64,000 nucleotides of DNA from Owenia fusiformis (lineage: Eukaryota; Annelida; Polychaeta; Sabellida; Oweniidae). Below are positions 3,936 to 53,480 of this stretch, in pieces. Below the pieces are notes generated by a model that made no database searches, was not told where the DNA came from, and saw only the letters and a program-made list of their open reading frames with translations. Location: positions 1,364,001-1,428,000 of the forward strand of contig CAIIXF020000001.1 in assembly GCA_903813345.2 (NCBI GenBank). Reading direction: 5' to 3'. The position numbers and the translations under genes were made by a program. Numbering within the stretch: the stretch's first letter is position 1; each line of letters starts with the position of its first letter.

Positions 3936-5711
3936 ATGATGGTGGGACTTTATATGATGTACTATAAAGCGATAGTACGTGCAAACTTGCCAACTGGCCG
4001 GCGTGGAAATGTTTTCGTGTCCATTGTCATAATATCATTTATTGGTTTTAATGGATTATCTCTTATACTTTCAGCAATGCCGGACTATAGTGGATCAGTG
4101 ATTGTGACGTCAGTGTTGGAGCCGCCATTTCTCATGAGACGCCAGCAAAGTGATGATAACAGATCTGACAATATACCAGGTGACAAAGACAATAATGCAC
4201 AATACGAGGGATTTATAGTAGATTTGATAAATGCAATTGGACGGTAAGTTTCTAACGAAGCAAAAGAAAAAAGTAAAACAAAGGAGTAACAATATTTGTT
4301 TCATTCGACAAGTAGAAAATGTTTATCTGACTGGTTTTCATTTTTTGTTTTCTGTTTATTCCATATAAATGAGATATAATCTTTACTATATAGTTGCAAA
4401 TAACCTTGGTATGAATATATTCTTGGCGTATGTTTTCGATTTTATGAAACATATCAAATGATATTTAATAAATAAACGCAATACATTTCAGCATAACACA
4501 AACTCGCTTTGTTATAAGAGAGGCCGAGGACAGAAGGCACGGAGCGCGAGATGACGAAGGGCGTTGGAGCGGGATGATCGGTGAGGTCCTTGGGGACAGT
4601 GGCGTGATTCAGGAGGTTCTACGTGGAGTAAGTCAATTCTTAATCAACCGATCAAATTGACCATGTATTTTGGTTTGTTATTCCTGTTTATTGTCAATGT
4701 CCTGTTATTGTTGATGTCATGTTGTTGATATAGATGCCATTGTTTCTAATAAACCATACGTCACAGATTCAAAATATACAAAAAAAATAAATATAGAATT
4801 CAATCCGTGGCACAATGGAGTGAATGCAGTACACGGTTTCAAGTGGATTTCATATTGTTAAAGGCGAAACACTCTCCGAAGCATCTCACAAAAAAGAATA
4901 TAAAGTAAAACATGATAAGATTATTTTGTAAGAAAAACGAATCTAATCCTATATCATGACATTTGCCTTTACCTTTCAGAAAGCAGATATGGCTGCAGGG
5001 CCACTTCTAATTACAAAATACAGAAAAATGGACGTCGACTTTTCCATGCCTTTCATGAGGTTTGGATACAGCATAGTCTTCAAGGATTCCCCACAGTTCA
5101 AGAACATCATTTCTCTCGAAGGCCTGCTTAACATGACAAAGGCTGGTGTGACTGACGATGTCAATAATACGATTCGTGACATTGTATTCAACTATTTGCA
5201 TCACGACACGATTGTTGGAGGTCTCATGGAGCACATGTACAAGAACGAAAAACAAAACGTGCTCAAACAACTTTGGGCATATATGAGCCGCGAGCAAGTA
5301 TTAAAACCGAGTAAAATCTTGGTTGATGATATCAACGTTGCCCTGAAAAGGATAAGGGATGACGGTGTTATTATGATCATGGAAACACCTTCCGCTGAAT
5401 ACATAACCGAAAGTCTGCCGTGTGATTTAAGATCCATTAGAATTACTGATGTTGGTACCAACTGGACTGAATATGCTTATGGCTTTGCAACCGAGCCGTC
5501 TTCTCCGCTACAGATGGATCTGAACCAGGCGTTATCGATGCTGGAGTTCAGTGGAGAACTACAACTTCTGAGAGAACGCTGGTGGCAAACACCTTGTCTC
5601 GACATCACAATAAATTTTGCAGCATCAATTGAGAATGGTGCAATATTTTTCAATAAATTGATACTTCTAAAAACTTTGTTTATATGCATTTTAGTGACGT
5701 ATATCACATAG
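3936..5711 (+). CDS. Ionotropic glutamate receptor-like ligand-binding protein lacking the channel domain
   Basis: Three exons, 3936-4243, 4492-4627 and 4980-5711, join in frame (phases 2 then 0) into 391 aa. Residues 1 to about 50 are hydrophobic (VFVSIVIISFIGF), a likely signal peptide. S1 follows (EPPFLMRR near 65; HGARDDEGRWSGMIGE; KADMAAGPLLITKYRK 149-164; FSMPFMRFGYSIVF). S2 starts at once near residue 190 (ISLEGLL) and ends at RERWWQTPC. The M1, pore and M3 segments that separate S1 from S2 in all channel-forming receptors are absent, inside one uninterrupted exon. Ligand residues matching GluA2 R485, T655 and E705 are kept as R163, T212 and E283, and the S2 disulfide pair as C296 and C354. 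The protein ends in a hydrophobic tail (369-391) with no cytosolic part. A splice-acceptor-like TTTCAG at 4069-4074 offers an alternative upstream exon, so the start is the least certain part. No amino-terminal domain is seen. Confidence 0.8.
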
Positions 5712-7123: not shown

Positions 7124-10100
7124 CTAACTATTGCTAGACACATTATTAGGTGGATCCTTTTGAGTCCTCAACAGCATTGTTATGTAGATTGGAAATCCAA
7201 ACAACGTCAAATTCAACACCAAGATCACTACATTCATCTAGAATGAACACGTCTGAATTAATTTGTAAGACTTTACAAGTCTGATTGTAACATAAATCGG
7301 AGGAAAGAATCTTAACTGTTATAGATGCAAGAAGGATTTCGACAAATGTGATTTAGTGAAAGGAGGAAGTATAGTGTGTGCCACCTATATTCATGCATTT
7401 GTGCAAACAGCATCATCATGGACCAATGCAAGCTGGACTTGAATATAGATGGCAGTTCACTTTCTCTAGTGGGCTATCCTTCACATCTGTACTCCCATTG
7501 GTTTGTATGTAACATAGTTGTATCAAAACTTCCAATATAGTACACAGAACAAATCAATATCACAATTTCTCTTCATACTTATTTACGTAATGCTTTAATA
7601 TGATTAAATTCTTTGCCATCTATTGACAGTACCAATGCCATTCAGACTTGTAACACTACGTATTTACTTACAATTAGGAAGCCATTGTCAAACGATTCGG
7701 CACCAATAAATATAGGTTGTTGCAATGCGCTAGCAGCGGTGCCTGAAGCAAATGTTGCACTCAACAACTTGCCGAAATGCTTCTGTGGAAATCTATGAAA
7801 GAGAACAAACACATACATTGCTGTGATGCAAACTATCTAGTATATTTTGCGTCTCGATAAAAGCCAGGAAGCGCATTGTGTCTACAATACAAAACAATAT
7901 ATGGTCGTGGCCAGAGGGGAAGCAGTTTACAATACCACAGGAAAGCACTTAAGAGTTCATTCATAGTATTTTATTTTAAAAGTAGGGCTAATGGTTTTTC
8001 AATATCTACATATGCATGCAGTTTATGACTACTCACGCTTCTGAGATGAACGCAGCATTGACGGCATAAAGGAATCCCCGTGATGCCACAAACGCAATAT
8101 ATGTAAAGTACTGCGCGTGCAGACTTGGTATCATCGTACTTATGCTGAGGACAAAGTTCATGGCAGCCTCCGTTGTGAATATATAAATGTAGGGTCGCAG
8201 GTATTCTATAATTATTTTATGGCGATAATTCACATTAAACATTCTTGACAAAAACAAATTATCAAGTGTATATCTACGCCTTACGTTACATAGCGCTTCT
8301 ACAATAAACTGATCACAAACAGCATGACAAACTAACTTGTGTGTGGACTGTCGCCATCTTCTCTTTTCCTCCATGTATCGATGAATATACCCGCCAGGGG
8401 GCTGACAAGGAAGCCGCAAGCCAACATCCCAGTGAACACGGACGTGTGCAAGGTAACTGAAATTGAACGACAATTGGTAAATGTACACGAGTATGGTATG
8501 GAAAGTGATTTTAAGGCAACCATTTATCTTTTGATATTAACATTTCATCTGAGTAAGGTCTTCGCGATACTAAACTTATCAATCATAATATCTAAAAAAA
8601 CATGCATTAGGAGCTTACCTCAATATACTTTTCAGAAAGTCGGGCTTGCGCAATTACATAACAAGAGATGTATACCTTCCTTGAAGGCAGAGTGGTGTTG
8701 AGCATATCTTAGTTACCAAAATATTGGACTCAAAGCAATAGATAGAATGCGTATTGGAATATAAGAAGGGACACATTGTTTCATCACCGCTCCCTCTTTC
8801 ACCGCTCCCTCATTCAAAAGTACATTTTGATTTGGAAAAATGAGAAAATGGATGTCCTATTTTTAGAAGTCCGAGATTTTGAAAAACGCGGATCATTTTC
8901 TGAGGGTTGGATTTATATTTCTGTTATCCTGATACTGTACCTTTACTTCGACAACAACATATAATCACAACTAAAAAGATGTATAAGTGGTCCAAATATA
9001 CATGATGACCAATATATCTAAATTATATTTGGAAGATAATAGCATGATTGAAATACCCAGAGAGCTCAAGATGATTTAATGACAAGTTGTATGCTAAAAT
9101 AACTAAAATTATGTGATATATTAGTTAAAACAATTAGCACCTACCTAGTATTTCATCACCTGCGCTCAGGTCGGTAATCCATGAGTTGAAAGAGACGAAG
9201 AAATATTTACTCCTTAAATTCAATACAGAAAACGTCCATGTGTTCCACAGAAATAATGGCGAAAATAGTGTTTTAGTCAGCCCATCTGTTTCAATATAAG
9301 TTGTATTAATTTTGGATGTGGCTTTGTTTGGCAAGCCATTACAATCCGTGATCGTTTCTTTACTATTGATTCTCGGATCTTCAGCCGCCGAGTCTTTTGG
9401 TCGACACTCACTTATCGTTTTTATATCATCGGTTGTTGATTCAGTTGGACGGATATCACGACCACTCAGATTTGGTTCATTTGGTGCTTCAAATGCTTTA
9501 TTCGTGTATCCTTGGAGTTCAACCTTACTCTCACTAGGAGCACAATCCTTTGGTTCAGCTGTCGAATAGTTTTTTCGGACCTCCTCATCATGCGCAACAT
9601 TTGTGGCTATATATCTGACCCCTTTCAATCGTTGTAAGATGATAAATGCCATTGGATATCTTCCATTGTTGTCCGAATGTATATGCTTCCAAGGTTGAAA
9701 TATGAATGTCCCCAGGAGTGTGATTGGCAATAAGACAGACAGGAACACATACAAGGAAGAAGACAAGGGAACCCCATTCTCGTACTGAAGCTTAAATTAT
9801 AACGACAACTAAAGGTATAATTTGTATATTAAACGAAATGGTGTTACAGAATGCATTTTCAATATACGTTTTCAAATATGATACATTTTGTTTTGATACT
9901 TAAAGTATTTATGAAACCACCATCGTATATGATGAGTAATTACTAATTGAATGAAATAAAATTCTTTCAAACCTGTGTTTATATTTTTGAACATTACATT
10001 GAAAGGCCATCTCGTACTTTTACGATGTTGGTTTTAAAGAAATGAAAATGACAAGGATGCCTCAATACCCACCTTAAATACTATGGCGACAGAAGCGCTT

Positions 10101-13093
10101 GCATCATACAGACCATTGTATGCAGCTAGTATGGTTGATCTGCTTCTTGGAAACAACGCGGAAGTCTGTAAACTCGTTACAAATAAAAAGAGTCCACCGT
10201 ATTGTAGAAAGAAGAAAGCTGGGAATAGTAAATAATTTGTCCAAGCATCTGTAATCAAGATGTCAATAATATGTATTTAGAAAAAAATAGGATACCTCAA
10301 ACACGATTTAAGTTTTCCTGTAAAAGACCATTCGATATCAATCTTTATTCGAGGTATTTTTGAGAAAATGGAAATGCACTTGCATTGTCTACAGCTCAGC
10401 GGGCCCATACGAACACGGGGATGGTAAGCAACATATTACATTTGTGATTGCAAAAGACAAGTCAACCATTTTGTTTGCTAAAGTTAAGGAATTTATGCTG
10501 CCCTTGATGCCTCTAGTAAAAGTGGTACTACATAAAGTAGTGCTACAATATATGAGTAGTGCTAAATAAGTACATAGTCTCACTTTATAAGAGTTTCTTA
10601 ACAAAGTGGTTAAATAAAATGAGGCAACACAAGGTAGTTATGCTATACAACGTGGTCCTATTCAAAGTTGTGTCTCTGCTATACAGAGTGGTACGAATTG
10701 AAGTAGTACTGTACACTATGTTATTGAATAAAGTGTTCCTTTACAAGGTGGTACGAAATAAAAAATTGTCCTGGAAAAATTTGTAACTAGATTAACTAGA
10801 AAAACAGCAACTCCAGGGAGTAGCAAATCCAACTGAACAAAGCATATTTTGATATTTAGTGGCCATCTTGAAAATTACTTCTTGAACAGAGCATATGAGC
10901 ATATAAACCAAATTGAACCAAGTCCATCCACTGGTATTTGAGATAAAAAAGATGTGATGTTTCTTTCCAAAAATGGCGGCCATTTTAAAATTTGACCGCC
11001 ATCTTGAAACTTTCTTCTTGAGCAAAGATCTTTTGTCCTTAAGTAGCATATAAAGTTGTAACCAAAACTGTCAACTGGTATTTGAGCTATCAAAGATTTC
11101 ATTTAAAAAGATAAATGACAGCCATTTTGATAAATAGCAGCCATCTTGAAAATATGCAGACCTCCTTCATCTCTAAGCATCAGCATATAAAATCAAATTC
11201 ATCCACTGGTATTTGATTTATCAAAGATAACATTTTTAAATAAAAATGCGGCCATTTTGAAATTCAGCTTTCATCTTTAAAATTACCATATAACCTAGTT
11301 CCTTTGTCTCCTTAGTTTCTTCTTCTTTGTTTCACTTGTTGTTATTCTTTGCCCTCTTTCGGTTCTTCTTTCTTGGTTTTCTTTCTTGCTATACTTTTTC
11401 TCTTTGGTCTTGTTTGGTGTCGGGTCTGCAGACTTGTGACTACACGTCGGTGGGTTGAAGCTTTTTCTACCGGTAACACCCCCTTTCCCTTTTAGACCGG
11501 GTGCTTTTCTGCAAAAGGTCTCTCTGTAAAATGTGGTAGGCGTTTAGTGTTAAAGTGTTCTGACAAGTGTTTCTCATGTAACTTTTTATGCTGAATCCAA
11601 AAAACCATGTTGGCAAGCTGAAATATGATTATTTAACCCTTAAGATACCATGTTAGTCCCCCTACCCCCATAATTCACCCCTATCAGGGGGAAAAAATTC
11701 TTCAACCTAAAATAAATTATAAATAAATTAAGGGTTAAATAATCATATTTCAACTTGCCAACATGGTTTTTTGGATTCAGCATAAAAAGTTACATAAGAA
11801 ACACTTGTCAGAACACTTTTAACACTAAACGCCTACCACATTTCCTCTAGATGAAAATGCACCTTGTCTATTTGTCTTTATCGATGTTTGTTTTTGTTGC
11901 TGTTTTTCTTATATAGTTTACCCTCATTTTGGAGACTGATATCTAAATTTTGAATTAAGGGCCATTTTGGACGACTTCTCCATATCCCTACGAACTTCGT
12001 TCGGTGGAATAATAAACTATAGTGGTGCTATTCACATTTGTACTAAATACCGTAGTGCCATAAAGTTACTTATAATTATAAAATGATGCTATGCAACTTA
12101 GCACTAAATAAAACTGTACTATTCAAAATGGTAACAATTATAAATAGTACTTACCTTGGTTTGAGAAGGCAATTGCTAGTAAAGCGCAGGCGTACATCGA
12201 CCTACATAGTGTGAATAAATGTGTATTTCAATTTTGCATCTTCTTTGCTAAGAGCTATTACTATGAACAAGCAAGTTTACATTACTCTTTTCAAGACTAG
12301 GACCGAGACGTCTTGAGAAACTGTGGATTTAAAGGACAATCTTAAGACGCCTCGACTCTTTAACGTTTTACATAAGAGGTCTTAAGAGTGTAGTGAAAAT
12401 CAAGCTTATATTCTGATTGGAGTTTTCAACGGACAAAAAGACAATGAAGAAGACAATGCAAGGATACTTGCCTGAAAATGCAAGGAAATACATGCCTCCC
12501 TACTTAATATTGAGACAATAGGCCATGTAGCCTGGTACATAACATTTTTCAAACCCGTAATTATAAATATGAACATGCGACTTGATTTTTACTCAATTTG
12601 CTTCGCCATTTTCATAACCAAACGAGCTTTATCATTTCAATATTGATTATTTTCATTGTTTGAGAAGGTGATTGTTATAAGCAACTCACAAAGACAAGAT
12701 ACGACATACCATCGTACCAAACCTATCGTAAATGTAGCCATTAATAATGGATAGAATGCCCGTGAGCACAGTTGTTGTAGTAAATACCAAACTGAACATG
12801 TCGTTCCTTTCTCTGCAATCAATGACTGCGTTATTTTCAACATCGCTTGCATTGACTCCAATTGACACATTATTATCAAACGATGTTACATCAGTGCGTG
12901 TGTCTGTTAACGGGCCTTCATCATATGTAGCATTGCCTCTTGTTTTCATGTACTTCGTTAAGCAGATGTCGGCGAATATCCCATCGTCTTTAAAAACATA
13001 GATCCAAGAAGACCATCCAAATGGAATACCACAAAACAAGCCTATTTCTATTCCAGTCCATATCAATCTGGCAACGTTCATGTAATTCAACAT
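7124..13093 (-). CDS. SLC43A3-like: SLC43A3-like transporter, tandem copy A
   Basis: Eight minus-strand exons join in frame into 598 aa: 13093-12690, 12201-12155, 10248-10073, 9790-9145, 8456-8337, 8205-8037, 7792-7672, 7237-7124. All have GT/AG borders with matching phases. Exon 1 holds TM1-2 and the MFS-type DRFGTM motif; exon 3 aligns with the SLC43A3 segment around YNGLYDASASV; exon 4 holds two helices, a long hydrophilic cytosolic loop and FVSFNSWITDLSAGD; exon 6 holds SRGFLYAVNAAFISEA; exon 7 FPQKHFGKLLSA; exon 8 the last helix. Human SLC43A3 (491 aa) is an equilibrative nucleobase transporter; SLC43A1/2 carry neutral amino acids. The best-matching words favour A3, but the substrate is inference. 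The extra length is mostly the loop in exon 4. The start could also be the internal Met of MNVARLIW, the one shared with copy B. Confidence 0.88.
10465..10780. repeat. Degenerate GTGGTACT minisatellite in SLC43 copy A intron 2
   Basis: Imperfect units of about 20 bp around AAGTGGTACTA repeat through this stretch. The same words return at 12010-12150 in intron 2 and at 19060-19160 in the matching intron of copy B, so the repeat probably predates the gene duplication or spread with it. It has no coding potential; long frames through it are by-products of the periodicity. Confidence 0.6.
10860..11290. repeat. Tandem repeat of about 130 bp with GGCCATTTTGAAA core
   Basis: Three to four diverged units follow one another, each carrying CACTGGTATTTGA, a purine-rich stretch with TATCAAAGAT and a core near GGCCATTTTGAAA or CCATCTTGAAA. 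It lies within intron 2 of SLC43 copy A. Confidence 0.6.
11531..11841. repeat. Palindromic (foldback) MITE of about 310 bp
   Basis: Arms of roughly 105 bp, 11531-11637 and 11735-11841, are inverted copies. Each outer end carries GTGGTAGGCGTTTAGTGTTA, and each inner part AAATATGATTATTTAACCCT. The spacer holds C-runs and G-runs (CCCCCTACCCCCAT; CAGGGGGAAA). The arms match almost perfectly, so the copy is young or kept homogeneous. No transposase is encoded. It sits in intron 2 of SLC43 copy A. Confidence 0.8.
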
Positions 13094-13577
13094 TTTTTGC
13101 TAATGTCCTTGCAAATTCACAAACTTGAAAGAACTATAAAAATCACTGCGATTAGCAGACGTTGATACAACATATGTAGTAATTGTTTGTGTCAATCTCC
13201 TTAAAGATGCAGTGACTCCAAGGTTTTTCTCTGAGACAATGCAATAGGTGATGTCCCATTATAATTTCTCATACAATATCTTACATATCTTGAGACCAAC
13301 CCTTGGGTAAAGTATTGCCTAGTATATATTTATTTTCAAATTTCCGACCGTCATTTCTGAGTACAAGCATACAATTACTACAGTCACCGTAGGACTCGGG
13401 ATCTAACAATTGCAAAAATATATATGTTAATGTGTATTCTTTGTATTGGACTCCTATCAAACACTGCCTCTTTAACGAGCAATTTTTCAGTTGAAGCAAG
13501 CTTTCACGAATTCAACTATCAGCGACTGGTGACGATTTGATTGCTTTTTTATGGCCGACTCATTTAAATGAGGCAAG

Positions 13578-14137
13578 TACAGGGTGGTCAAAAATGGAAA
13601 CCCTAATAACATTGTCCTCATATCTTTGTCATTCCCTGATATTTTATACATTTGTACATCATTCAATTTGCTACCAGCCTACTTTATTTCATGACTATCA
13701 AACTGATAGTCACAATGTTACAGCAATTTAAAGAACATGCCCAGTGGCCACTATTGCGTTGTGGGGAAACCTGTACTCATCGTCTAAAATGCCCCTACTT
13801 GTGGGTAAACGACAAAGATAGTGTGTATGAGAATGACCTCAGGGCAATAGCAGACCTCAAAAGTGAGACGATTCGTGTCATTCAGGCCATACCTGCTGGG
13901 GAATGCATTCGGGTCATTGACAACTGTGCTGTTTTGCCTACAGCGCGATAATGGCCAAATCTGAAGCATGTTATTCTAAGTGCTGTGAAATTGTGACTAT
14001 CAGTCTGATGGTCATGAAATATGGTAGGGTGGTAGGAAATTGAATGATGTACAAATGTGCGAAATATCAGGGAGTATTTTCTTAAATTGACAAAGATATA
14101 AGGAAAATGCAGGGTTTCAATTTTTTACCACCCTGTA
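13578..14137 (+). mobile_element. Deleted Tc1/mariner-like transposon with transposase C-terminal remnant
   Basis: The ends are inverted copies starting CAGGGTGGTCAAAAATGG on the left, with CCACCCTG on the right, each bordered by TA as expected for the Tc1/mariner superfamily. Inside, a plus-strand frame ending near 13951 reads CPYLWVNDKDSVYEND and then IPAGECIRVIDN. This matches the usual end of mariner-family transposases, where FLWGYLK.D.VY is followed by a helix and IP.E...RV.DN. The catalytic core is gone, so this is a non-autonomous remnant. It lies upstream of SLC43 copy A and downstream of copy B. The strand is that of the transposase remnant. Confidence 0.7.
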
Positions 14138-14955
14138 CTTGCTGCGCATCTTAATAGCGGCTAGCTATCGTAGAAAACCTGTCGCTGACCTACATAAAGG
14201 TTTAATCTGTTTATTCAAGTAGCAACTAACAGTGACTAACGATCTGCTTGCTATTTCAACGGGTGGCTTTATCATAATCCATCATACTGATTACAATTGC
14301 ATTAAAGTCATGTGAAAGTCAATGATAGTTATTATTAGCGGCTTGATCATTATTTGAAGTTCAAAATGACGATTTTGATTTATGTTGATTACACATGATT
14401 ATGTAACCGCCAGCCGGTAATTGATACCAACAAATGATAGTTTAGACTGTTGAATGATCAAGGTAGCTTAATACTTAAATTGTGTTAATTAAAAAGGCCC
14501 TGTGGTAAGTTTGAAAATTGTGAATTTTTTAATGTTTTATAATTTTCAAATGTTTGAATTTCTCGCCATTTTGAATCAAAAAATTCACCAAATATAACAC
14601 TCTACACTGCAAAAAAAACATATTTTTATCTGCTCCATTGGATAGATCAAACAAACGTTATATCACTTAAACCATTCAATCTATGAATCATGCATGTACA
14701 CTGTATATATATTTTATACAAACTTTAAAAGCATTTTTAAATGTGATGTCACGCGTGCGCTGTTCAATCATTCAGGTGTTAAATCATTTTTATTTACTAT
14801 GCGATCCCTCATATTAAAATGTGTTTTTCAGTAACAGTAGTATAGTAGGGACATATTTTAAAGTTCGTTCAATGTAGTTGTTTCTATGTTTTTATATTAG
14901 AGGCTTGCTTCTTTTCGTTCTTCAAGCGTTTCTACAGTTGTCGGTGATTTTCTTT

Positions 14956-17900
14956 CTAACTATTGCTAGACACATTATTAGGTGGATCCTTTTGAGTCTT
15001 CAACTGCCTGGTAATGTAGATTGGGAATCCAAACAACGTCAAATTCAACGCCAAGAGGACTCCATTCATCTAGGTACAGAAGGTATATAGTATTAATTCA
15101 AACATTTAAATAAAACTTGAAATTAATCATCGTTAGGTCTGTTCCCGTTGTGATTATTCTGTGAGGCCTGAACTAAAAAATACAAGACTGGAAACATTTT
15201 AACATGAAATCATGTAAATATCTTTGCCGTTATTTAGATGACAATGTGGTTTTGATAAATGTTATTTTGTAATTGTAAAGGGGTTTACGTGTACTTTAAA
15301 GTATCTCGACAAACGTAAATTTAAAAGGTCTATTGATGGATGTCTCAGTAACGACTTTCTTAATATGAAAGTCCGCCCGGATACTACGTTTTACTTACTA
15401 TTAGGAAGCCATTGTCAAACGATTCGGCACCAATAAATATAGGTTGTTGCAATGCGCTAGCAAAGGTGCCTGATGCAAACGTCGCACTCAACAACTTGCC
15501 GAAATGCTTCTGTGGAAATCTGTTGAAGAAAACAAACACATACATTGCTGTGATGCAAACTATCTAGTATATTTTGCGTCTCGATAAGGGCCAATAAGCG
15601 AATTGTGTCTACTTACAAAATATATGAGAAACAGTTTACAATACCACATAACAGGGAAAGCATTTATGAGTATATTCATAACATATTAAAAGTAGGCATA
15701 TATGTACATATTTATACAACTTTTGACAAAGTGATAGCCACAAAATCTAAACAAATTTGCAAATATTTCACTTTGGGGGCTAAGGGACATATTTTGGAGG
15801 TCAAATTGAGAAGATTTTGAGATATAAATACTGTTTCCATGGTAACCATATAAGTTAGAGATTGGACATTTCTGGCACTGACTAACCATGGTATGCCTCC
15901 GATCGCCTACTATAAAACTATGAATGTATGACATGCATTAGTATTCGTTTTATCAGGTGGTATTAAAGTACCCCCAAGGTTTTCTTGGGGTGGGGTATGA
16001 ATTGGCCCGAGGGCCGTCTGCCACCCCTACATGAAGTCCGACTACCCAGAAAGTGCCCAGCATAACCATACAGACTGTTTGAAATATGCTGGAATGTGTG
16101 ACCTTCCATGAAAAGAAGAAGTTGCAATTATCAGAGTAGTCCATAGACTAGCAACGGATTTTTCAATATGTACATACATTGTATGTGCCGTTTTAATTTA
16201 TAACTACTCACGCTTCTGAGATGAACGCAGCATTGACAGCATAAAGGAATCCCCTAGATGTTACAAACGCAATATATGTAAAGTACTGCGCGTTCAGACT
16301 TGGTATCATCGAACTTACGTTGAAGACAGCGTTCAAGGCAAACTCCGTTGTGAATATATAAATGTAGGGTCGTAGGTGTTCTACAATTTCATGGGAAAAT
16401 TTAATTAAAAGTTTTTGTCGAAACCTAAGACAAATAAAATATAAATTATAGACAACCTGTATATCTGTATCGGATGTAATATAAAATATCATAAAATCCC
16501 TTCTCTTGAGAAGAATAACAGAATAACAAACTAACTTGTGTGTGGACTGCCCCGATCTTCTCTTTTCCTCCATGTATCGATGAATATACCTGCCAGGGGG
16601 CTGACAAGGAAGCCGAAAGCCAACATTCCAGTGAACACGGACGTGTGCAAGGTGACTGAAATTGAACGGATCTTTGTGGACTATTTTAGATTCTAAGGCG
16701 TCTTTCAAATGAACAAATAAAAAATTGACAAATGATTTTAGACAGTCGTACCTTTGACCATGAGTGTTTTCGTATCATTTCCGCCCCATTTAGAAAGTAC
16801 CTCGCAAAGTGCAGAAGAAACGTATGATTTTGTAAAAATGAGAAACTAGAAAAAACTAAATGTCGATATGTTAGATGATATGTATTAGTTAAAATAAAAC
16901 TTCTACCCTCCTACCTAGTTTTCTGTCACCTGCACTCAGGTCGGTAATCCACGAGTTGAACGAGACGAAAAAGTATTGATTCCTCAAATTCAGGAAAGAA
17001 AATGTCCATATATTCCACAGAAATAATGGTGAAAACAGAATTTTAGTAAGCCTATCTGTTTCAATATCAGATGTATTATTTTTGAGTGTATCTTTATTTT
17101 GTAAACTGCTACAGTCCTTGGTCGTTTCTTGACTACTGGCTGTTGAATCTTTGTGCGCAAAGTCTTTTGGTCGACACCCACTGATCGTTTTAATTTCATC
17201 CGTTTTTGAATCAGTTTGAATGTTGCCATGACCACTCAGATTTGTTTTATTTGGCGATTCAAATACTTCGTTCGTGTACCCTTGGAGTTCACCCCGACTC
17301 TGCTTACTAGGCGTAATATCCATAGAAACATGTCGTACGGCTATTGAATATTTTCTTCTCATCCGTTCGTCGTTCTCTATATTTGTGGCTATATATTTGG
17401 CGACTTTCAATCGTTGGAAGATGATAAATGCCATTGGATGTCTTCCATTGTTGTCCGAATGTATGTGCTTCCAAGGTTGAAATATGAATGTCCCAAGGAG
17501 TGTGATTGGCAAGAAGACAGACAGGAACACATACAAGGAAGAAGACAAGGGAATCCCATTCTCGTATTGAAGCTGAAAGTATTACAACGACTGTAAATGT
17601 GTAAAAATCGTGTCGATCGATCTATCGGTCTGTCTGTTGGTTTGTCGGTCTGTGCAATAACGTTTAAATGTAAATGCTTGTTTTTGAATTAGTCAATTAA
17701 ATAACAACTACATCTTACAGCCCAAACAAATGTCCTTATTGTTGCTTTTAGTATATAAACGGGAAGATGCTACCCATTGTATTAAGTATCAGGCCCCATG
17801 TAAAGTTTGGAAATAAGTTTTATCATTCATTTACTATTTTTAAAAAATAATTTGGGAGATTTTCGGAGAGTTGGTTTTAATCACTAAAATTACAAAATGT

Positions 17901-20900
17901 ATCTTTCTCTGAACCACTCCAATACATGGATGAGTTCATTTTTCAATAATTTATCAACAACTCTTCTTAATTTTTCGACAAAAGACACGTGGGGATGAAT
18001 GTTATGCATTGTTGTGAATAACCGCTCATTAAAATATAAGTGTGAGCTCTATAATTTAGTTTTAAATAGATTAACGATTTTCGAACTAAAAGTCCTTCAA
18101 AAAACACATTTTGAATTTAGAATATTTACATATTACATTCTGATAACATTGGGTAACAGTGTACAATATAAGGCACTACAATATAAGGTTTAAACTGTAT
18201 ATGGGGCCTTTAAAGGATCTATGTAAAGACTAAACCCATTTGTTGGTCCTCATTTCCACTTATATGAAATATAATAAAGGAACATAATACGATTTAAACA
18301 TAAACTGGCTTCAGACGATATCACAAGACTTTGATTCTGGTTGTTCGACTATAATTTAGGGGTGTAAAGATACAATTATTTGGAAAGAAGCGATGTAATG
18401 TCTAGGTCACATTTGCTACGACTCATCGGCCGGCACCCGGCCAATTGCAGTATTTTGTTCAAAACTGATTTCAACGTTCGATTGACCAAATTTTTTGTTA
18501 AATAATGTACAAGTTCTCAGTAGTTCACATCTGATATCAAATTTGTCTCGATGAATCGGAGCAAATGTGGCCTCATAAGTTAAATATAAATGGAAATACT
18601 AAGAATGCTTCCGTACCCACCTTAAATACTATAGCAACAGAAGCGCTTGCATCATACAGACCATTGTATGCAGCTAGTATGGTTGATCTGCTTCTTGGAA
18701 ACAACGCTGACGTCTGTAAACTCGTTACAAACAAAAAGAGTCCGCCATATCGGAGAAAGAAGAAAGCTGGGAATAGTAAATAATTTGCCCAAGCACCTGT
18801 AAATTAAGATAACAATAAATGCACTGTAGAAAAACATGTTTAATATAAAATGTGTGTCGAACAAATTACGAAAGTTCGAATTGAGAAGTCCTGGAGAAGA
18901 CCCCTCGATATTTCAAACATTATTATTAAACTATTTTCGGAGAGAATATTGGAATGCAACTGCAAGAGTATATAACAAATGAGCGAGCCTACAGCTTAAA
19001 TGAACGCTGAAATATCGTGTCATGGGTGTCTCACATAAAACTGTTGCTTTAAAAGTCTTTAAAAGAGATGTGGTACTAAATAATAAAAGTGGTACTAAAT
19101 AAAGTGTCGCTATGTGCTATAGAAAGTGGTACTAAATATAGATTGCTATTCAGTAAGTTATTTAACAATATGATTTTCTTCAACGTGGCTCTGAATATAA
19201 TTGTGCTTCTGGCAAAATATGGTAAAGTAGTACTAACTTTGCTTTGAGAAGGCAATTGCTATCAGAGCACTGGCATACATCGACCTATAAGTGAATTAAT
19301 GTGTATTGCCGTTTTGTCCTGTCAGAGTATATTCTACATTTAGTAATAATCGATTCAAACGATCCTTCCAACGGTTTAGAATAATGTCGCATAAATGAAT
19401 AAACAGAAGGAGCACACACGTATCGAACTCGCAACCTCGTGGTTACGGCGCTCAAGCTAGAATGCTCAAATATTTGAACAGAAGAGAGCAGTGAGATAAA
19501 AATAAGGGGACACTAAAACAATAAAGATCGCTCTAAGATAAGGAGAACACCAAGATATTATGGAATTTATTTTGTATCAAAATTGGACAATACACAATAT
19601 GATGCGACACTCGAACTATATGAATCGAGACTCGCATCTTAATATGCGAAATACGCATCTTCATATGCAAAACTTGCATCATGGTATACAATTTTCAATC
19701 TACGTTATACCAATTAGTTTTCTTACATAACTTATTTTCATTCACATACGCACTGGTTGTATCAAGCGTCACACAAAGAGTTAGCACTAACTCCGATTAC
19801 TTTCCAAAAATCCAAAAACAATGTTGAAATGTCACACGGATTGTGTTATAAGTAGAATAGAATAGTGAAAGAATTACACAGAGATCAAAGTAAATTTCGA
19901 ACGAACGTGTCAGTTTGACTGTCCGTCCGTCCATCCGTCCGTGCCAATTGTGGCACGTTTTAAAACCTCTGTCGATAGGATTCCCATTTTAAGCTATTTT
20001 TGTTCAATGTCAATACAGAAAACTCCCCTATGACTCCTGGTTCAAAAGCTTGCCTATTTTGTTACAAAAAATCAGCAAAAAGTTATATCCGTTTTTTTTA
20101 TTTCAGCCATATAGTTAACATTGATTTGTCCATCTGTCTCGCGAAATCCACTTTTGTACCATTTGCCTTGAAACCTCTCTCAATAGGATTCCCGTTTTAA
20201 GAAAGTTTTGTTCAACATCAATACAAAAAACTCCGCTATGACTCCTGGTTCAAAAGCTCACCTATTTTCAGAATGGTGGCCATTTTTGTCTCGCGAAATT
20301 CACTTTGGCCCATTTCCTAGCATTACAAATAATTTCAGGTGTCCTGCATTGTAAAAAGCCATGTCTTTGTAAAGAGTGTTGTATGAAATAATTTTGTTAC
20401 AAAAAATCCCCAAAATTATATCCGCTTTTTTATTTGTTGTCATTTTAGCCATTATTCACTTTTGAACAACACCTTGTGAGCCCAGTACCCACGGTACTAT
20501 TTTATTAAACACTGCATACACAGATACGCGTGTACAAGTGTAATTTTACCAACATAGAGTGTGCAAACAAACGGTGTATGACATCACACGGATTTTGTAT
20601 GTATTCTGCTAGACGCTATTCAATGTCTTAGAGATATCACATAAATAAAATATGTCCAATTTTGATACAGTTTAAACACCATAAGATTTGAGATGAGAGC
20701 GCCAAAAACAAAAAAGGGGCGTATATATAATACATGGTTTGGTTTAAGATATATTATATCACTTCCTTTTCCATTTGAACACGGAGTACAAAATATTAAA
20801 CATAACATTTAGACATAACTGGGAGAACAAAATGAAGACAAATTTCAAACAAAACGCAGAAAAACAATTCACGTTTAAAATATCAATTAAAATAGCACAA

Positions 20901-21663
20901 AAATAGCACTGAATTTTGCATTTGAGATATTGAAGGCAAAAAATACTTTTTTAAACTTGCTTGAAATTGACAGATTTTCTTCTAAATCATCCCAGAAGTT
21001 CAGACCTGACCTTAGATTTGATACTTGACCTTTGGTTGACCTTCGGTGATCAAAAGGTAAGAAAATTGATTTTTCAAAGTGAACAAATCATTTTTAAATA
21101 TTATCTACATATCCCGGGAGATCTGATATTTGACTTTCCTTAAAATTGTGAAACGTGCCTTCGAGGGCCTACTTAAGATTGCTTGTAATCTTGATTTCTA
21201 ATAATTTTCATCGTTTAAGAATGTTATTGTAAATGGCAACTTACAAAGACAAGAGACGACATACCAGCGTACCAAACCTATCGTAAATGTAGCCGTTAAT
21301 AATGGATAGAATGCCCGTGAGCACAGATGTTGTAGTAAATACCAAACTTAACATGTCGTTCCTTCCTCTGCATTCAATGGCTGCGTTCTTTTCAAAATTG
21401 CTTGCATTGACTCCAGTTGGTACGTCATCATAATACGTTGTAGTAGCATTGGTGAATGTGTCTGTTGACGGGGTTGCTCCATTATATGTAGCATTATCTA
21501 TTAATTCTACGTTATGGTCAAGGCAGATGTCAGCAAATATTCCATTATCTTTAAAAACATAGATCCAAGAAGACCATCCATATGAAATACCACAAAACAA
21601 TCCTATTTCTATCCCAGTCCATATCAATCTGGCCACATTCATGCTGTTTGACTTGCATTTCAT
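14956..21663 (-). CDS. SLC43A3-like: SLC43A3-like transporter, tandem copy B
   Basis: Eight minus-strand exons join into 607 aa: 21663-21245, 19284-19238, 18796-18621, 17572-16915, 16655-16536, 16380-16212, 15519-15399, 15069-14956. Every intron phase equals that of copy A; exons 2, 3, 5, 6, 7 and 8 have identical lengths in both copies. Only exon 1 (an extracellular loop after IYVFKDNGIFADICL rich in Asn, Thr and possible N-glycosylation sites) and exon 4 (the large cytosolic loop between the two halves) differ in length. Twelve helices are expected, as in the SLC43 family. No stop or frameshift is present, so both copies look functional. It lies upstream of copy A in a head-to-tail tandem duplication. 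An AATAAA candidate lies about 160 bp past the stop. Substrate (nucleobase or amino acid) is not shown by the sequence. Confidence 0.88.
18405..18572. mobile_element. GGTCACATTTGCTCCG palindromic MITE, diverged copy
   Basis: The left end reads AGGTCACATTTGCTACG followed by CATCGGCCGGC; the right end is the inverse, CGATGAATCGGAGCAAATGTG. It belongs with the copies at 40790 and 61300 but its centre has decayed. It sits in intron 3 of SLC43 copy B, just upstream of the exon 3 donor. Confidence 0.65.
19920..20505 (-). repeat. Dispersed repeat related to 30610-31035, inverted and internally duplicated
   Basis: The words GACTCCTGGTTCAAAAGCT, TTCAATGTCAATACAGAAAA and ATTCACTTTTGAACAACACC occur here and in inverse orientation at 30610-31035. 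Part of the unit is present twice here (about 20000-20050 and 20205-20260). Both copies start near a GTCCGTC-type simple repeat. It has no coding capacity that I can see and may be a SINE-like or foldback-derived family. It lies in intron 1 of SLC43 copy B. Confidence 0.6.
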
Positions 21664-23550
21664 TTTGGTTCAAGTGAAAACTAATTTTTCTTGGTTATGC
21701 TACCCGGATTAGAAAAACATACAAGTTGTATAAAATATCATCGAATTCAATGTGCTGTCATTAATAGGTTAGTATGCGTGATGTCCTTTTGAATTTTAAA
21801 GCTTGAAAGAACTATTTAAGTGCGACTCAATAGGGCTGTGTGTCATTCACCTTAAAACAAGCAACACAAGGACGACAATACATTATGATATTGAAAAATA
21901 AATTATCTATATCTTAGATGGAGAACATTTTTACACGTGTTTTCAGATTATTTATTATTTATTTTTATGAAAAAAATAAGAACAAAAATGGAGTTCTAGG
22001 CTGGGCCAAGTTGAACTTCTCATGAAGACAGAAGAGTAAGTTCGAAAATGTTTAAGAAGGCGAGCCAAGATCAAACACAAAACTTGATTTTTTATTCAAT
22101 CAATTACAATCGGGTTTTAAAGTAATATAGATAACGAAGGAATATACGTTAAACTGTAAGGAAATAATACAAATTCAACTGCGAAATTGAATTTTTCTAA
22201 TAGACAACGTCATCTACATCCGGGTCATCGTCAAATTTGAGAAATGCCAATATGAAGATAAAATCGAAACATATCATATATCTTAAAGGCGAAACGACCA
22301 AAACGTTTGTCATGTTGAAATCTATTCACCCCTCGGGCTTAGGATTGGATGCTTGCGATGAAAAATTAACGGCATCCATCACGTAAAACGAACAAGAACG
22401 AAATTAAAATACATTATATTTAATAAGCAGCTAGAATACAAAACGTCGCGAACTTTTCAAACATTTGCAAACAAAGGCTGCTTTTGTGCTAAAGAAGCTA
22501 TGACTGGTTTATACTAGTTCACAAGTGCATCTTTAAGAAATATTAAAAAGGTTCTAGCCTGCAAACTGTAACCACCTTCCATTAACTTCGTCACAGATGC
22601 CGACCGCCAAAAGCCAACCTCCGAACATAGTCCACAAAAAAGTTGTAGACAATAATTTCTAGTTGTTCGTATTTCCATTGCAGGTTATGTAAATAAAATT
22701 CAAACATAGTGAGGCCTTTAACAGGGTTTACAGTCAATGACCGGTCGCACGGGTCGGTGCACGTGAAGCCACTGTTTTTGGTAGCATCACAAACATGATA
22801 AACAGGATGTATATGGGCAAATACGGTAATTGATATTTTCAAACATAGTCAAATTCTGTTGTTCTACCAACGTCCGCGCCATGTGTGTTGATATCAACGA
22901 CATTTAATGTGTGCTGTTTTGATGTCAACACAAACATAAAACAGAATACGTTTTATTAAGTCCATATGACGTCGCAGAAAATCCTAGGAGCCTTTCGACT
23001 TGCGACAATGCGATAACTTGGTGATATAAAAAGTGGTGACATAGAAAAAGATCAAAGTCATGTTTTCTTTCTGTGGTACATCTTTTTGTTTAATCATAAA
23101 CAGTCATATGAATGAGTCTGCGCAAATCGGACACACCCCTTAGTTTTTCAAGTGAAACTCGACATAAATTCTAGCTGAAGTGTCATGTATTCAGATTTTA
23201 TACAAGTCAATGTTAATTTGTGGTTTAAAATACTGAAGGCATTCCAAGCTATGCAGACGTAGCCTGTGGGAAATATTTGATGCGGCAGGAATGAGCGTTT
23301 GGTGCGGAGGCAACGGTCATTTTTAATCTAAATTTGGGATATTTCTGAAACTAAGCCGTTTGGGACAAATATACTCATACCTGTGTAATTGACACCTGAT
23401 ATCGATAAAATTGTGAAAATAGTAGTGTAATTCATTCTATAGCGACGCAGTATGCGCTAAACCTTTATTTTTTGGAATTGTCGTTTTTAAACAGCGTCTA
23501 ACAAAACAAAATATCATTATATCATCAAACGATAAAGTTGTTTTGTTTAC
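21664..23550. other. Intergenic, no gene recognised
   Basis: This stretch lies upstream of SLC43 copy B and should contain its promoter and any untranslated first exon, which I cannot locate. Around 22678-22720 a segment reading GGTTATGTAAATAAAATTCA followed by AACATAGTGAGGC resembles the ends of the inverted-repeat element at 36766-39095, so a worn copy of that family is probably here. No coding exon was recognised. Confidence 0.5.
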
Positions 23551-34474: not shown

Positions 34475-36475
34475 TTAGTTGATATCGTTTAATTCTTTAA
34501 TGCTCAAAATATCTTTCAGTGTTCTTGGCAGAGATAATGATTTAATCTTCCCATGAATATTATTGCCCAGCAACTTCCTCAAAGTATATCTGCAGTGTTC
34601 TTGTAATGGCTTCGGATGACATACGAAGTCACATAGCCAAGATATCTTTCCTGCATATAATGCGTGATGGTGTACATGATCACATGCGTCACTTCCTTTA
34701 CTATTCATCCAATCAGCAGACACATTAATCTTCGCCCCGGATACCGCCAAACAAAGCATGATCTTCATGCTGCCATACGTTGCTGCTACGTCAAATGGTG
34801 AGCATGTAATCCCACATACATTACCATTGATATCAGGGTCTGCATTATGGCTAAGTAATTCTTTAACTATTTCAAGATCACCTTTACCAACTGCATAAAC
34901 CAGTGGCGTATTACCATCCGAGTCAACCTGATTGGGATCAGCGCCTCTGTCTAGTAATAATTTGCAACATATATGGTTTGTTCTAGCAGAAGCAATGTGA
35001 AGGCTTCTACATTGCCACGTAGAGTCTGACGTGAAGCTCAATTCTTTCATAACATTGCTTGCCCCTACTTTGTGTTCATCTAGAGATATAGGAACAAAGT
35101 TACCATCAGAGGTTGACGTGGCGCTACAATCTACAGGAGTTCCAACATCAAGAAGTAATTCAGTGCAAGCTGCGTGGCCTTCAGCAACTGATGCTATCAG
35201 AGCCATTTTCAGATCAAACTGTTGCCTATACGGTAGTCCTTCATACAAGTCCTTCTTTAATTTCGGTTTGGCCTTGGATGATTTAAAAAACATTTCTTCG
35301 TATTTTGTAAGTGTATAATTTAAAACAACACGATGCCCTCTTTCTACTGCTAGGACTAAGGGGGTACGTTTGTCACAATCTCTTGCAGTAATATCAGCCC
35401 CATGTGATAGTAGCATTTCAACACAGGCTTTGTGCCCCCTTCTGGCGGCCCAGTGGCATGCTGTTTTGTTTCTATCATCCACAATGTTCACATCAGCACC
35501 CACATCAACTAGTTGGCTCACCATCTCAACATGACCGTCTATGGAAGCATACATAAGTACCGTCATGCCATCTATATCCTACAAATGATTAAATAATCGG
35601 TTACAGTAACATTTAGTCACTCCAAATTGTGTTCTTCGCGATTTCAATAAGATAATATGTTATTTGATATCAGATTTATTTATTTTATTTTGGATCATTT
35701 TATAAGATGTTATTTGATATATACACTGAAAATATTAGAGCTCCACCTACTCTGGAATTAATTAATGATCCCATAACATGTAGATTTGGAGTCACGTGCT
35801 TTAGCATCTCCGCCATGCAACCAACAGATCCAGATCTTGCTAAAAGATGGAACACAGCTCGTCCTTTCTGGTCTCGGACTGCAACATCTGGGTCTTCCCT
35901 GAGTAACATAGTAATCAGATCCAAACACCCAATTCTTGACGCTATCATGAGGGGAGTTTCCTTTGCATCATTAATTGAGTTAACATCGTATCCATTCTCT
36001 AAGAGGAACTTTGCCATATTTTGCCTTTGGTGCAAGACTGTCGTGTGCAGGAGGGGCTCCGAGTGCCTTTCACTTGTCATTGATAGACTCGGTTCATCCA
36101 AGAGTCTCACGAACAGCTTAAAGCTGTTGACACAATTTGATAGAATGGTGAGTATTGCAAATTGGTGAAGTTCGTGAGAGGATAGCTCGGGATTATCAGA
36201 GATGAAATCATTCAACGAATCAACGTCGTCTGTTGCAAGAGTCGACAGAAATCTAAAAAATAAAAAGTGCAACAAAATGCAAATAAGCAATGCTTAAATA
36301 ATGACTATTCGCACTAATTTTGATAGAATGATGCACATTGCAAACGGCTCAAGTGTTCCTAATAGGTATACAGATGCGTAGAATATAAATAGCATGTAAA
36401 TACATGTATATAGTTTAATGTACTTGCTTTATGGTATACAGGTTCGTTAACCTACCTTGTCGGAACGTCATCCAT
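34475..36475 (-). CDS. Ankyrin-repeat and SOCS-box protein (ASB family)
   Basis: Three minus-strand exons, 36475-36456, 36252-35751 and 35578-34475, join in frame (phases 2 and 0) into 541 aa starting MDDVPTR. About ten ankyrin-like repeats follow, the clearest being GMTVLMYASIDGHVEMV, ACHWAARRGHKACVEMLLS, SLHIASARTNHICCKLLL and TPLVYAVGKGDLEIVKELL. The C-terminus (about 498-533) is a SOCS box: a BC-box LQEHCRYTL for elongin B/C and a Cul5-box-like LPRTLKDIL. ASB proteins are substrate receptors of elongin-cullin-5 E3 ubiquitin ligases, the ankyrin stack choosing the target. The insert around YEEMFFKSSKAKPKLKKDL breaks the repeat array and may be a loop. Which ASB subtype it corresponds to is not clear. 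The very short first coding exon (20 bases) is supported by the exact in-frame join and a GTAGGT donor. Confidence 0.88.
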
Positions 36476-41079: not shown

Positions 41080-41999
41080 TTACAATTGATTGTTTGTCCT
41101 TCGTTCTAACCACTCGTATGCCTTTAATGTAGCTGTACTTTCCGTGAGCGTACAATCACTAAGTTTTAAGTTAAATGCTTCGGTGGCTCCTATCAAACGC
41201 CCCGACAAAAGTAAATCTAGAGCATTTTTTCGACCAATCAATTTAACTAATCTTGATGCTCCGCCAAAGGATGAGGATACGCCCAATTTGACATGTGTAA
41301 ATCCTATACACGCATTTTCAGTCATCAGTCTGAAATCGCATGCAGTGGCTAATTCCGCTCCTCCGCCTAAAGCATAGCCTTGCACAAGAGCTAAACTGAC
41401 CAAATGAAGATTAGACAACCTCGTTGTGACTTGCTGCATAAAATTGCACATTTGGATGCCTAGTTCAGGATCCAGGATTTTTCCGACAGTTTCCAGATCC
41501 CCGCCTGAGCAGAATGACCCTTTGGATCCGTACATCAAAACGCCCTTACCCTCGTTCCAGCCTTCAAGTTTAGATACTATTTCTTGTAAGTCTACCATCA
41601 TTTTACCTGAAAACAAGTTATTTACGAGTGAGTTGAACCATGGGCTTTCAACTAGATAAGCGGTATAAACTTTTCTCTCTTAGTAAAGTCATTGAGTTTT
41701 CAATTATTGTTGACATGTGACGTATCATACCCGAGGCTACATTTTTTTCTGGTTGACATGTGGCGAATCATACCTGAGAGTGCATTATTTTTTTGGGAAT
41801 GACATGTGACGTATCATACCTCTGGGTGCATTATTTTTTCTGCTTGACATGTGACGCAACATACCTGAGAGTGCATTCTTTTTTTCTGGTTGATTGAGCA
41901 CGATTGTCGCAATTTTGCTCCTGTCATCTATCTTGAGATCCATTGAACCACCTATGCACGTGACGAGATAGTCACGAATCGTTGAAATATATCGAGAAT
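41080..41999 (-). CDS. ECHDC1-like: ECHDC1-like crotonase (ethylmalonyl-CoA decarboxylase), 5' partial, short 3' end
   Basis: Two minus-strand exons, 41999-41865 and 41606-41080, join in frame at NALSG/KMMVDL, exactly where human ECHDC1 reads NAFSGVMM. Clear words are GGSMDLKIDD, LNQPEKKNA, SFCSGGDL, LVQGYALGGGAELATACDFR and GFTHVKLGVSSSFGG, covering the crotonase core with its oxyanion-hole glycines. ECHDC1 removes ethylmalonyl-CoA, a side product of acetyl-CoA carboxylase, in the cytosol. The frame stops after EWLERRTNNQL, about 60 residues before the human end, so the C-terminal helices used for packing and oligomer contacts in crotonases are missing unless a further exon exists. A 5' exon is also needed before 41999 (acceptor TTCACACAG) and was not found. 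Confidence 0.82.
41711..41890 (-). repeat. 45-bp tandem array copying the ECHDC1-like donor site
   Basis: The true exon end, AATGCACTCTCAG/GTATGT followed by CACATGTCAA, is repeated in the intron with the TGACATG word at 41711, 41754, 41800 and 41845 on the plus strand (spacings 43, 46, 45). Each copy retains GTATG at the same place. The second donor (exon would end at 41820) is reached by an open frame and would add 15 residues without changing phase. A stop lies before the third donor. Confidence 0.8.
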
Positions 42000-52500: not shown

Positions 52501-53480
52501 TTTCGATTTTCACGACATTTTAACTTTGAAAAATGTATTGTCTTTTCCTTAATTTTGAACTTCATGAATTCCCATAATTCGATCTTGCTGAGATCACGGT
52601 GCTCGTCACGTAATTTTGTTATGAGGCTTCGGATGCTTAAAGAGTACTCCTCGTCTTGTAGCAAACTATTATTAAATTTCCAAAAACCCGCCCCCCTCAT
52701 TTCTGTATCCAAACCAATATTAAGTCGTAATAATTTATGATCAGAAAGAATGGCAGGCTCGATAAAGCACTCATCATTCTTTTTGATCCTCCTGTCAACA
52801 AAAAACATATCAATCCTACTTTTAAATTTTGAATTTTTAAACTCATCCTTCGCAAAGGACTCATAAGTATATTGTACCGCAGAAAGGTTTAACGTTCTCC
52901 AGATATCAAAAAGATTAAAATCATGTATCATTGATCTCACGATACCGGCAGATTCGGATTCTTTATGTTTTGTCATTCCGTAGGAATATCTATCCGTATT
53001 AGGGTCGAGAATCGTGTTACAATCACCTCCTATAATCAAAAAATCTGAAGCAAAGTTCGTTGAAATATGAGTGTGAAGCTTTTCAAAGAAAGTCTTATTT
53101 TCGTGACCATCGTTTGGCGCGTAGATATTCACAAAAGTATAAGAGTGAGTACCTATTTTACATTTAACGATAACATACCTACCTGACGAATGTGTATCGA
53201 TATCCAAAATGTCATATCGCTGATGTTTAGAAAAAAGTATCGCGACTCCACGCTCGCTCCGTTTTTGACCATGCGCAAAATATATATCAGATCCCCATTC
53301 CCTTTTCCACATATTTTCATCGGCTATTGACGAATGGGTTTCTTGTAGAAAAACAACATCAAGTCTTTTTCTTTTCAGAAATAAGAAAATAGACGCCCTC
53401 TTTTTATTTTGTCTCAGTCCCTTCGTATTTAGGGACCCTAAATTTAAGTTACGGATAGGAGCAATATGGTTTCACCAAAG
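49588..53480 (-). mobile_element. L1/Tx1-like non-LTR retrotransposon (LINE)
   Basis: One minus-strand element carries an apurinic-type endonuclease followed by a reverse transcriptase and a C-terminal zinc knuckle. After the stop come about 160 bp of GT-rich 3' UTR (CA-rich on the plus strand), ending at a run of A on the minus strand (T-run 49588-49599), the likely 3' tail. No ORF1 was found upstream of the endonuclease, so the copy is probably 5'-truncated or begins close to 53480. Apart from one nonsense codon the coding region is intact, so the insertion is young. Confidence 0.85.
49752..53471 (-). pseudogene. LINE ORF2: endonuclease-reverse transcriptase with one in-frame stop
   Basis: The frame is open from just after an upstream TGA (53472-53474) to the stop at 49752, except for one TAA at 51843-51845. 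The endonuclease half shows SLNTKGL, FLQETHS, GGDCNTI and SDHKLL, the catalytic Glu, Asp and Ser-Asp-His motifs. The RT half shows NWRPISLLN, PDQTAFVKGR, IDFEKAYDSI, RQGDPLS and the catalytic YADD, then a CCHC knuckle CDFCGQKETIVHRFWEC near the end. In the family the position of the stop is normally Lys before NWRPISLLN, so a single base change explains it. The first ATG in frame is at 53312, but the domain clearly starts upstream of it. RT spelling points to the L1/Tx1 side of the LINE tree; the exact clade is not settled. Confidence 0.88.

Follow-up and report, generated by a model that had tools for sequence, protein, structure and literature searches.

Can the ligand-binding domain of a transmitter-gated channel persist as a gene of its own once the channel part is gone? 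This question is raised by a gene of the ionotropic glutamate receptor (iGluR) type near the start of the window, by which we mean the whole 64,000-nucleotide stretch of DNA analysed here (C1:1364001-1428000 of the 498-Mb genome that was searched). A preliminary description of the locus had claimed that the two halves of the binding domain, S1 and S2, are joined directly with the pore missing, that the gene has three exons and is not a retrocopy, and that its design is close to that of the S1S2 constructs made for crystallography. Reading of the splice sites joins the three exons (Table 1, with exon 1 taken from 3936) through GT..AG introns into an open frame of 391 amino acids. Within exon 3, S1 (ending in FSMPFMRFGYSIVFKDSP) passes into S2 (beginning with QFKNIISLEGLL) without a gap at about position 5094. 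Pfam recognizes the S1 half of the encoded protein (PF10613, Lig_chan-Glu_bd, 1e-26) and an SBP_bac_3 domain at residues 138-348 (4.5e-13), and there is no match to the Lig_chan pore domain in the whole protein at E values up to 1. With phmmer, GluK3 S1S2 constructs are aligned as one stretch (query residues 50-350 against residues 4-253 of a 258-residue chain, 8.1e-29), and the best 60 of 364 PDB matches are GluK, GluA or plain 'glutamate receptor' entries, the top value being 8.1e-29.

Pfam recognizes four of the 10 neighbouring open frames in the window. The surroundings include an ankyrin-repeat SOCS-box gene (34475-36293, minus strand; Pfam), an enoyl-CoA hydratase family gene (41080-41679, minus) and a LINE-like element (49752-53471, minus). 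In this element the frame 49752-51842 encodes a reverse transcriptase (PF00078, 7.8e-37), and a long frame next to it, at 51843-53471, resembles, by eye, the endonuclease part of a LINE. Two tandem genes at 8033-21669 (minus) face the poreless receptor gene. We take these to be amino-acid transporters of the SLC43 type; five frames tried from them gave no Pfam match at 0.01. Elsewhere in the genome, whose searches met 11 large contigs (C1-C9, C11 and C12), the erythrocruorin linker family PF16915, an annelid family, matches above its cut-off at three places on C6 (best E 5e-7), so the animal is likely to be an annelid; COX1 gave no match.

Table 1. Features of the poreless gene (positions in the window) and its three paralogues (positions in the genome).
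Feature	Position	Strand	Length	Remarks
Poreless iGluR-type gene	4075 (or 3936)-5711	+		Intact, three exons
Exon 1, as open frame	3936..4243	+		Conserved part probably from 4075; first S1 strand and VLEPPF
Exon 2	4492..4627	+		Remainder of S1, to GEVLGDSGVIQEVLRG
Exon 3	4980..5711	+		End of S1, S2 and C-terminus together; starts at phase-0 intron site cag/KADMAA
S1-S2 junction ..FKDSP/QFKN..	5091..5096	+		Site of M1-pore-M3 in channels
Arg codon equivalent to GluA2 R485	5022..5024	+		From alignment
C-terminal segment NFAASIENGAIFFNKLILLKTLFICILVTYIT	5613..5708	+		GPI-signal-like; hydrophobic end, no basic residue behind, one K inside the hydrophobic stretch
L001	C1:14.94M		300 aa	Open frame, GT..AG introns
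L002	C3:17.10M		312 aa	Open frame, GT..AG introns
L003	C1:17.58M		355 aa	Open frame, GT..AG introns

A genome search with the window protein yields three further genes (L001 through L003) in which a single exon contains both the end of S1 and S2 and leaves no space for a pore. No fifth poreless gene appeared among the best-scoring candidates of the genome when two of these paralogues served as queries. Grouped by hand, the 44 PF10613 matches fall into 25 S1-bearing loci. Nineteen have a PF00060 match within about 10 kb (in one case the match falls short of the curated cut-off), two have pore helices that are legible by eye where PF00060 is silent (C11:24.68M and C6:13.10M), and four are poreless. 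Because PF00060 missed two real pores, an absent match counts for little here, and we argue instead from the direct adjacency of S1 and S2. In all four genes the pore region M1-P-M3, with its SYTANLAAF-like motif, is missing and S1 and S2 are contiguous in a single exon. PF10613 and SBP_bac_3 match each of the four binding domains, and Lig_chan matches none of them. A profile of the four proteins aligns with crystallised S1S2 constructs over positions 2-253 of 256, with a top value of 2.3e-70 (best 60 of 207 matches).

Could pore exons nevertheless be present at these loci and have been missed through faulty annotation or assembly? We give this reading next to no credence. PF00060 did overlook the two legible pores elsewhere, but at four separate loci a single exon runs from S1 into S2 without a break, and three 18-kb stretches around the paralogues contain zero N. 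Moreover, among the PF00060 matches listed there is none on C3, and on C1 only one, at 58.3 Mb, with none before 58 Mb. The direct S1-S2 junction with its missing pore is thus borne out by the contiguity in exon 3, the lack of a Lig_chan match and the three paralogues of like shape, which make the shape of the window gene more than chance. The likeness to crystallography constructs is confirmed as well, since both the phmmer alignment and the four-gene profile match such constructs nearly end to end. As far as sequence can tell, the window holds a genuine S1S2 gene without a pore, real and intact and one of several, and the four make up a real, intact, multi-gene set in one genome.

With 115 of 190 candidates scored, no ANF_receptor match, which would mark an N-terminal domain, is listed near the four poreless loci. 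Such matches lie near many channel loci, but none is close for the channel loci L010, L011, L017 and L022. At the last of these (C6:13100500-13104500, minus), a signal-peptide-like start leads directly into the S1 strand (KHLKVVTIE), so that this channel gene apparently has no N-terminal domain. Other channel loci carry repeated exons. An AMPA/kainate-like gene (L019; C11:32666500-32672500, minus) contains four tandem M3 exons, each reading SSYTANLAAF and then the start of S2, and the array looks like a set of mutually exclusive pore exons. Of two AMPA-like loci, one (L026; C2:34.94M) has its S2 exon twice, and the other (L025; C2:34.97M) has one whole and two partial S2 exons.

Intron sites, read here from sequence and not from transcripts, bear on the origin of the poreless genes. 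Among the loci examined, all four poreless genes and all 13 non-NMDA channel loci have an acceptor at the phase-0 site that precedes (K/D/E)AD, and neither of two NMDA-type loci has it. A second acceptor, before EPPF, is present in three of the four poreless genes (the window gene lacks it) and in 12 of the 13 non-NMDA channel loci, the motif being unplaced in L019. Sites held in common with channel loci argue that the four genes are iGluRs by descent, and neither retrocopies nor bacterial. Together with the GT..AG splices and the open frame, they also uphold the earlier claim of a three-exon gene that is not a retrocopy. An origin from a bacterial solute-binding protein was considered and is ruled out by these sites, which are common to animal channel loci.

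The four genes thus descend from channel genes through loss of the pore, perhaps more than once. The channel gene L004 offers a possible route, as its M1 and pore have exons of their own, followed by one exon that covers M3, S2, M4 and the tail. From this layout, we infer that one deletion, starting where S1 ends and stopping where M3 ends, would yield the last exon observed in the poreless genes.

The window gene stands apart from its paralogues in several respects. It has an intron before exon 2, between NAIG and R, that the three paralogues do not have, and it lacks their intron before EPPF, so that it retains a single common intron site where the paralogues have two. Directly before the intron that it does share, a 10-residue insertion (DSGVIQEVLR, 4595-4624), without counterpart in the paralogues, partially repeats the preceding GEVLG motif. 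Trees of 19 and 25 sequences place the four poreless genes among divergent channel genes, with several inner nodes weakly supported. The rows of these trees were pieced from HMM matches; L020, a short fragment, was dropped, and L006, L014, L016, L021, L030 and L031, which are partial or scattered, were left outside. L002 and L003 are sisters (99.2/100 in the 25-row tree), and L001 groups with L017 (93.5/96 in that tree and 91.7/84 in the other), a channel whose pore and M4 can be read in the sequence. The window gene, the most divergent of the four, forms a long branch without a stable place. A single clade of all four genes is not rejected by the AU (0.068), KH (0.082) or SH (0.138) tests and is excluded by bp-RELL and c-ELW (both 0.031). 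AU values are 0.15 for a clade of L001, L002 and L003, and 0.52 for the window gene with L002 and L003. One clade of four is therefore disfavoured, yet AU does not reject it, and anything from one to three pore losses is possible.

If the pore was lost, then why should the remainder have been kept? Conceivably it was not, and the four genes are functionless remains of channel genes whose frames are open by chance. The insertions and lost contacts of the window gene would suit such relics, but we regard this explanation as quite improbable, because the four genes, at 27-49% pairwise identity in their binding domains, all retain full open frames, GT..AG sites and cysteines, and their differing tails look functional. 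Codon positions 1 and 2 differ by 31-56% between pairs while the frames are still open, and these positions diverge less than third positions in all six pairs; dS is saturated. In a simple neutral simulation, 2% of frames were open at 0.1 substitution per site and 0 of 2000 at 0.3.

The binding site was read from an alignment with five vertebrate binding domains, three of them entered as unverified sequences. In GluA2 numbering, R485 is kept in all four proteins, as are the C718-C773 disulphide pair and the acid at position 705 (E in three, D in L001). Thus, the clamps for the alpha-carboxyl and alpha-amino groups are preserved. The remainder of the pocket varies. Position 655 is M in the window gene, T in L001, L in L002 and V in L003, the last as in GluN1 and GluD2. 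Position 480, a threonine in GluA2, is L in the window gene, T in L001 and L003, and Y in L002. Y450 is retained in L001 through L003 and replaced by H in the window gene, which also has L at the S654 position; P478 is replaced by D in L003 and kept in the other three. None of the four proteins carries the complete GluA2 glutamate set. Of the contacts that the preliminary description had listed as retained in the window gene, R485 and E705 stand, whereas T655 does not, as this position aligns to M; the cysteine pair it had named (C296-C354) is present in the alignment.

With T655 changed to M, T480 to L and Y450 to H, L-glutamate is not assured as the ligand of the window-gene protein. Glutamate binding by this protein is doubtful, and a neutral or small alpha-amino acid is the more likely ligand. 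Given that the pockets vary among the four proteins and in every case fall short of the full glutamate set, each protein probably has a ligand of its own, which would be an alpha-amino acid though not necessarily glutamate.

Whether such proteins reach the cell exterior depends on the two ends of each gene. In L001 through L003, the exon before the binding domain starts in phase 1, and the window gene has an acceptor-like site of the same phase at 4074/4075 (CTCTTATACTTTCAG followed by CA). This agreement points to 3936-4074 as intronic sequence, with a signal-peptide exon further upstream. An exon 1 start at 3936 is accordingly doubtful, the conserved coding part probably begins at 4075, and what reads as a hydrophobic stretch from 3936 onward may be an intronic pyrimidine tract. 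Alternatively, the frame starting at 3936 carries a signal-like stretch of its own. In the 14 kb upstream, only weak candidates for a signal-peptide exon of the window gene were found, none of them convincing. The first exons of the three paralogues are likewise candidates only. Those of L003 (MNICALLLLLIGLVC) and L002 (MLKILAVVLSLSVACTQ, 11 kb away) have hydrophobicities of 3.59 and 2.72, above all 17 donor-matched antisense controls (top 2.39; 72 kb), and that of L001, at 2.18, is beaten by three of the antisense controls. Secretion of the poreless proteins is predicted on this basis.

At the other end, the proteins of L001, L003 and the window gene terminate in a hydrophobic stretch that no basic residue follows. 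A home-made rule for GPI-like tails (small omega site, spacer, and hydrophobic end free of a basic tail), which presupposes that no further 3' exon exists, is matched by three of the four poreless genes versus 15 of 327 background open frames and none of three channel C-termini. The tail of the window gene matches with a lysine inside its hydrophobic stretch. The preliminary description had proposed a secreted or membrane-tethered protein. An extracellular and tethered product is indeed probable, and since no basic residue follows the hydrophobic tail, a GPI-type signal fits better than a lone transmembrane helix. We infer GPI anchoring for the window gene, L001 and L003. L002 ends instead in a His-rich tail without a hydrophobic stretch, and apparently has no anchor.

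Histidine-rich segments flank the binding domain on both sides in L002 and L003, with 10 His in the 29 and 31 N-terminal residues, respectively, and nine in each C-terminal tail. Perhaps, then, these are extracellular carrier or matrix proteins concerned mainly with metal handling or with chemical sensing in the manner of odorant-binding proteins, the amino-acid clamp being secondary. The altered pockets are in keeping with this idea, as is a molluscan variant of acetylcholine-binding protein (AChBP) that acts in shell growth, according to one report (PMC3423370). However, the window gene and L001 have a His content of 1% and 2% and no His-rich segment, and the backbone clamps at R485 and acid-705 are intact in all four proteins, which leaves a carrier of this kind decidedly unlikely.

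The explanation that we favour, and consider fairly probable, is that all four genes encode amino-acid-binding proteins made from iGluR genes through loss of the whole of M1-P-M3, and that these proteins are secreted or GPI-tethered. On this view the poreless domain would fold into two lobes and clamp a free alpha-amino acid in the extracellular space. A GPI anchor would keep three members at the surface, and the fourth would be secreted; the His-rich segments of two members would probably bind metal. The proteins could bind and buffer the amino acid or present it, as an extracellular sink or co-receptor, much as AChBP does with acetylcholine. The role as decoy, buffer or co-receptor put forward in the preliminary description is in line with this scheme and might apply. 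The two-lobed fold is proposed from homology, because single-sequence structure prediction of exon 3 alone (4980-5708) was too poor to use (pLDDT 34.6).

A tethered S1S2 protein might instead pair with the binding domains of channel subunits in back-to-back lobe-1 dimers, and so serve as an auxiliary or dominant-negative subunit and not as a free binder. Its domain is the same as that in channel subunits, L001 groups with the channel L017, and a GPI-like tether would keep the protein at the surface. Still, the alignment shows GluA2 positions L483, E486 and K493, which we take to be the lobe-1 dimer interface, to be altered in all four proteins (K, K and M in the window gene), and L002 apparently has no anchor. 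A modulatory partner is therefore unlikely, and free amino-acid binders remain the explanation that we prefer.

Among the papers listed by a literature search, with most subscription journals outside its coverage, none describes a poreless or soluble iGluR family. A 2018 eLife survey of metazoan iGluRs excluded sequences from its final phylogeny if less than four residues of SYTANLAAF were conserved (PMC6307864). A placozoan iGluR study lists 13 sequences, 11 of them complete with at least three predicted transmembrane helices (PMC12226733). Poreless genes could be overlooked by filters of this kind.

The four genes resemble AMPA, kainate, delta and phi iGluRs in their S1S2 domain, in the R485 and acid-705 clamps and in the C718-C773 disulphide, and share one intron site with them in every case and a second in three of four. 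They differ in that M1-P-M3 is absent, as is an M4 with a cytosolic tail behind it, and that no N-terminal domain could be found; the four proteins cannot form a channel. Insect IRs and kainate-binding proteins have no N-terminal domain, as is apparently so for the four poreless genes, but unlike these they keep the pore. Engineered GluA2 S1S2 constructs join S1 to S2 by a short linker at a nearly identical point, whereas the present genes are natural, have slightly different linker lengths and carry C-terminal tails. Bacterial solute-binding proteins of family 3 are stand-alone two-lobed amino-acid clamps, secreted or tethered. The SBP_bac_3 model matches all four genes, although their intron sites and sequence are those of animal iGluRs.

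The closest parallel in the way of working is AChBP, in which animals turned a transmitter-gated channel into a free binder, and which opened the receptor binding site to structural work. In AChBP the ligand-binding domain of a neurotransmitter-gated channel is a native, soluble, extracellular protein, and the four poreless domains are predicted from their sequence to be extracellular as well. Membership of the AChBP family itself was rejected, because the present domain is of the iGluR type and has GPI-like tails and His-rich segments, whereas AChBP has the unrelated Cys-loop receptor fold and forms ring-like pentamers. Among lophotrochozoans, one report records AChBP in gastropods (Lymnaea, Aplysia and Biomphalaria) and in the annelid Capitella, and notes that its proposed role as a suppressor of cholinergic transmission has been challenged (PMC3423370). 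If our explanation is true, then the step from channel to binder was also taken in another great family of transmitter receptors. One would then expect extracellular buffering of amino acids, or chemosensing, away from synapses, and S1S2 domains of new ligand specificity would be at hand in a naturally soluble form. The broadest form of the proposal, for which we see the case as evenly balanced, is that these genes represent a native family of poreless, tethered or secreted binders derived from iGluR genes, possibly by several pore deletions and in some members with His-rich metal-binding segments: an iGluR counterpart of AChBP, and a return to the ancestral shape of a solute-binding protein.
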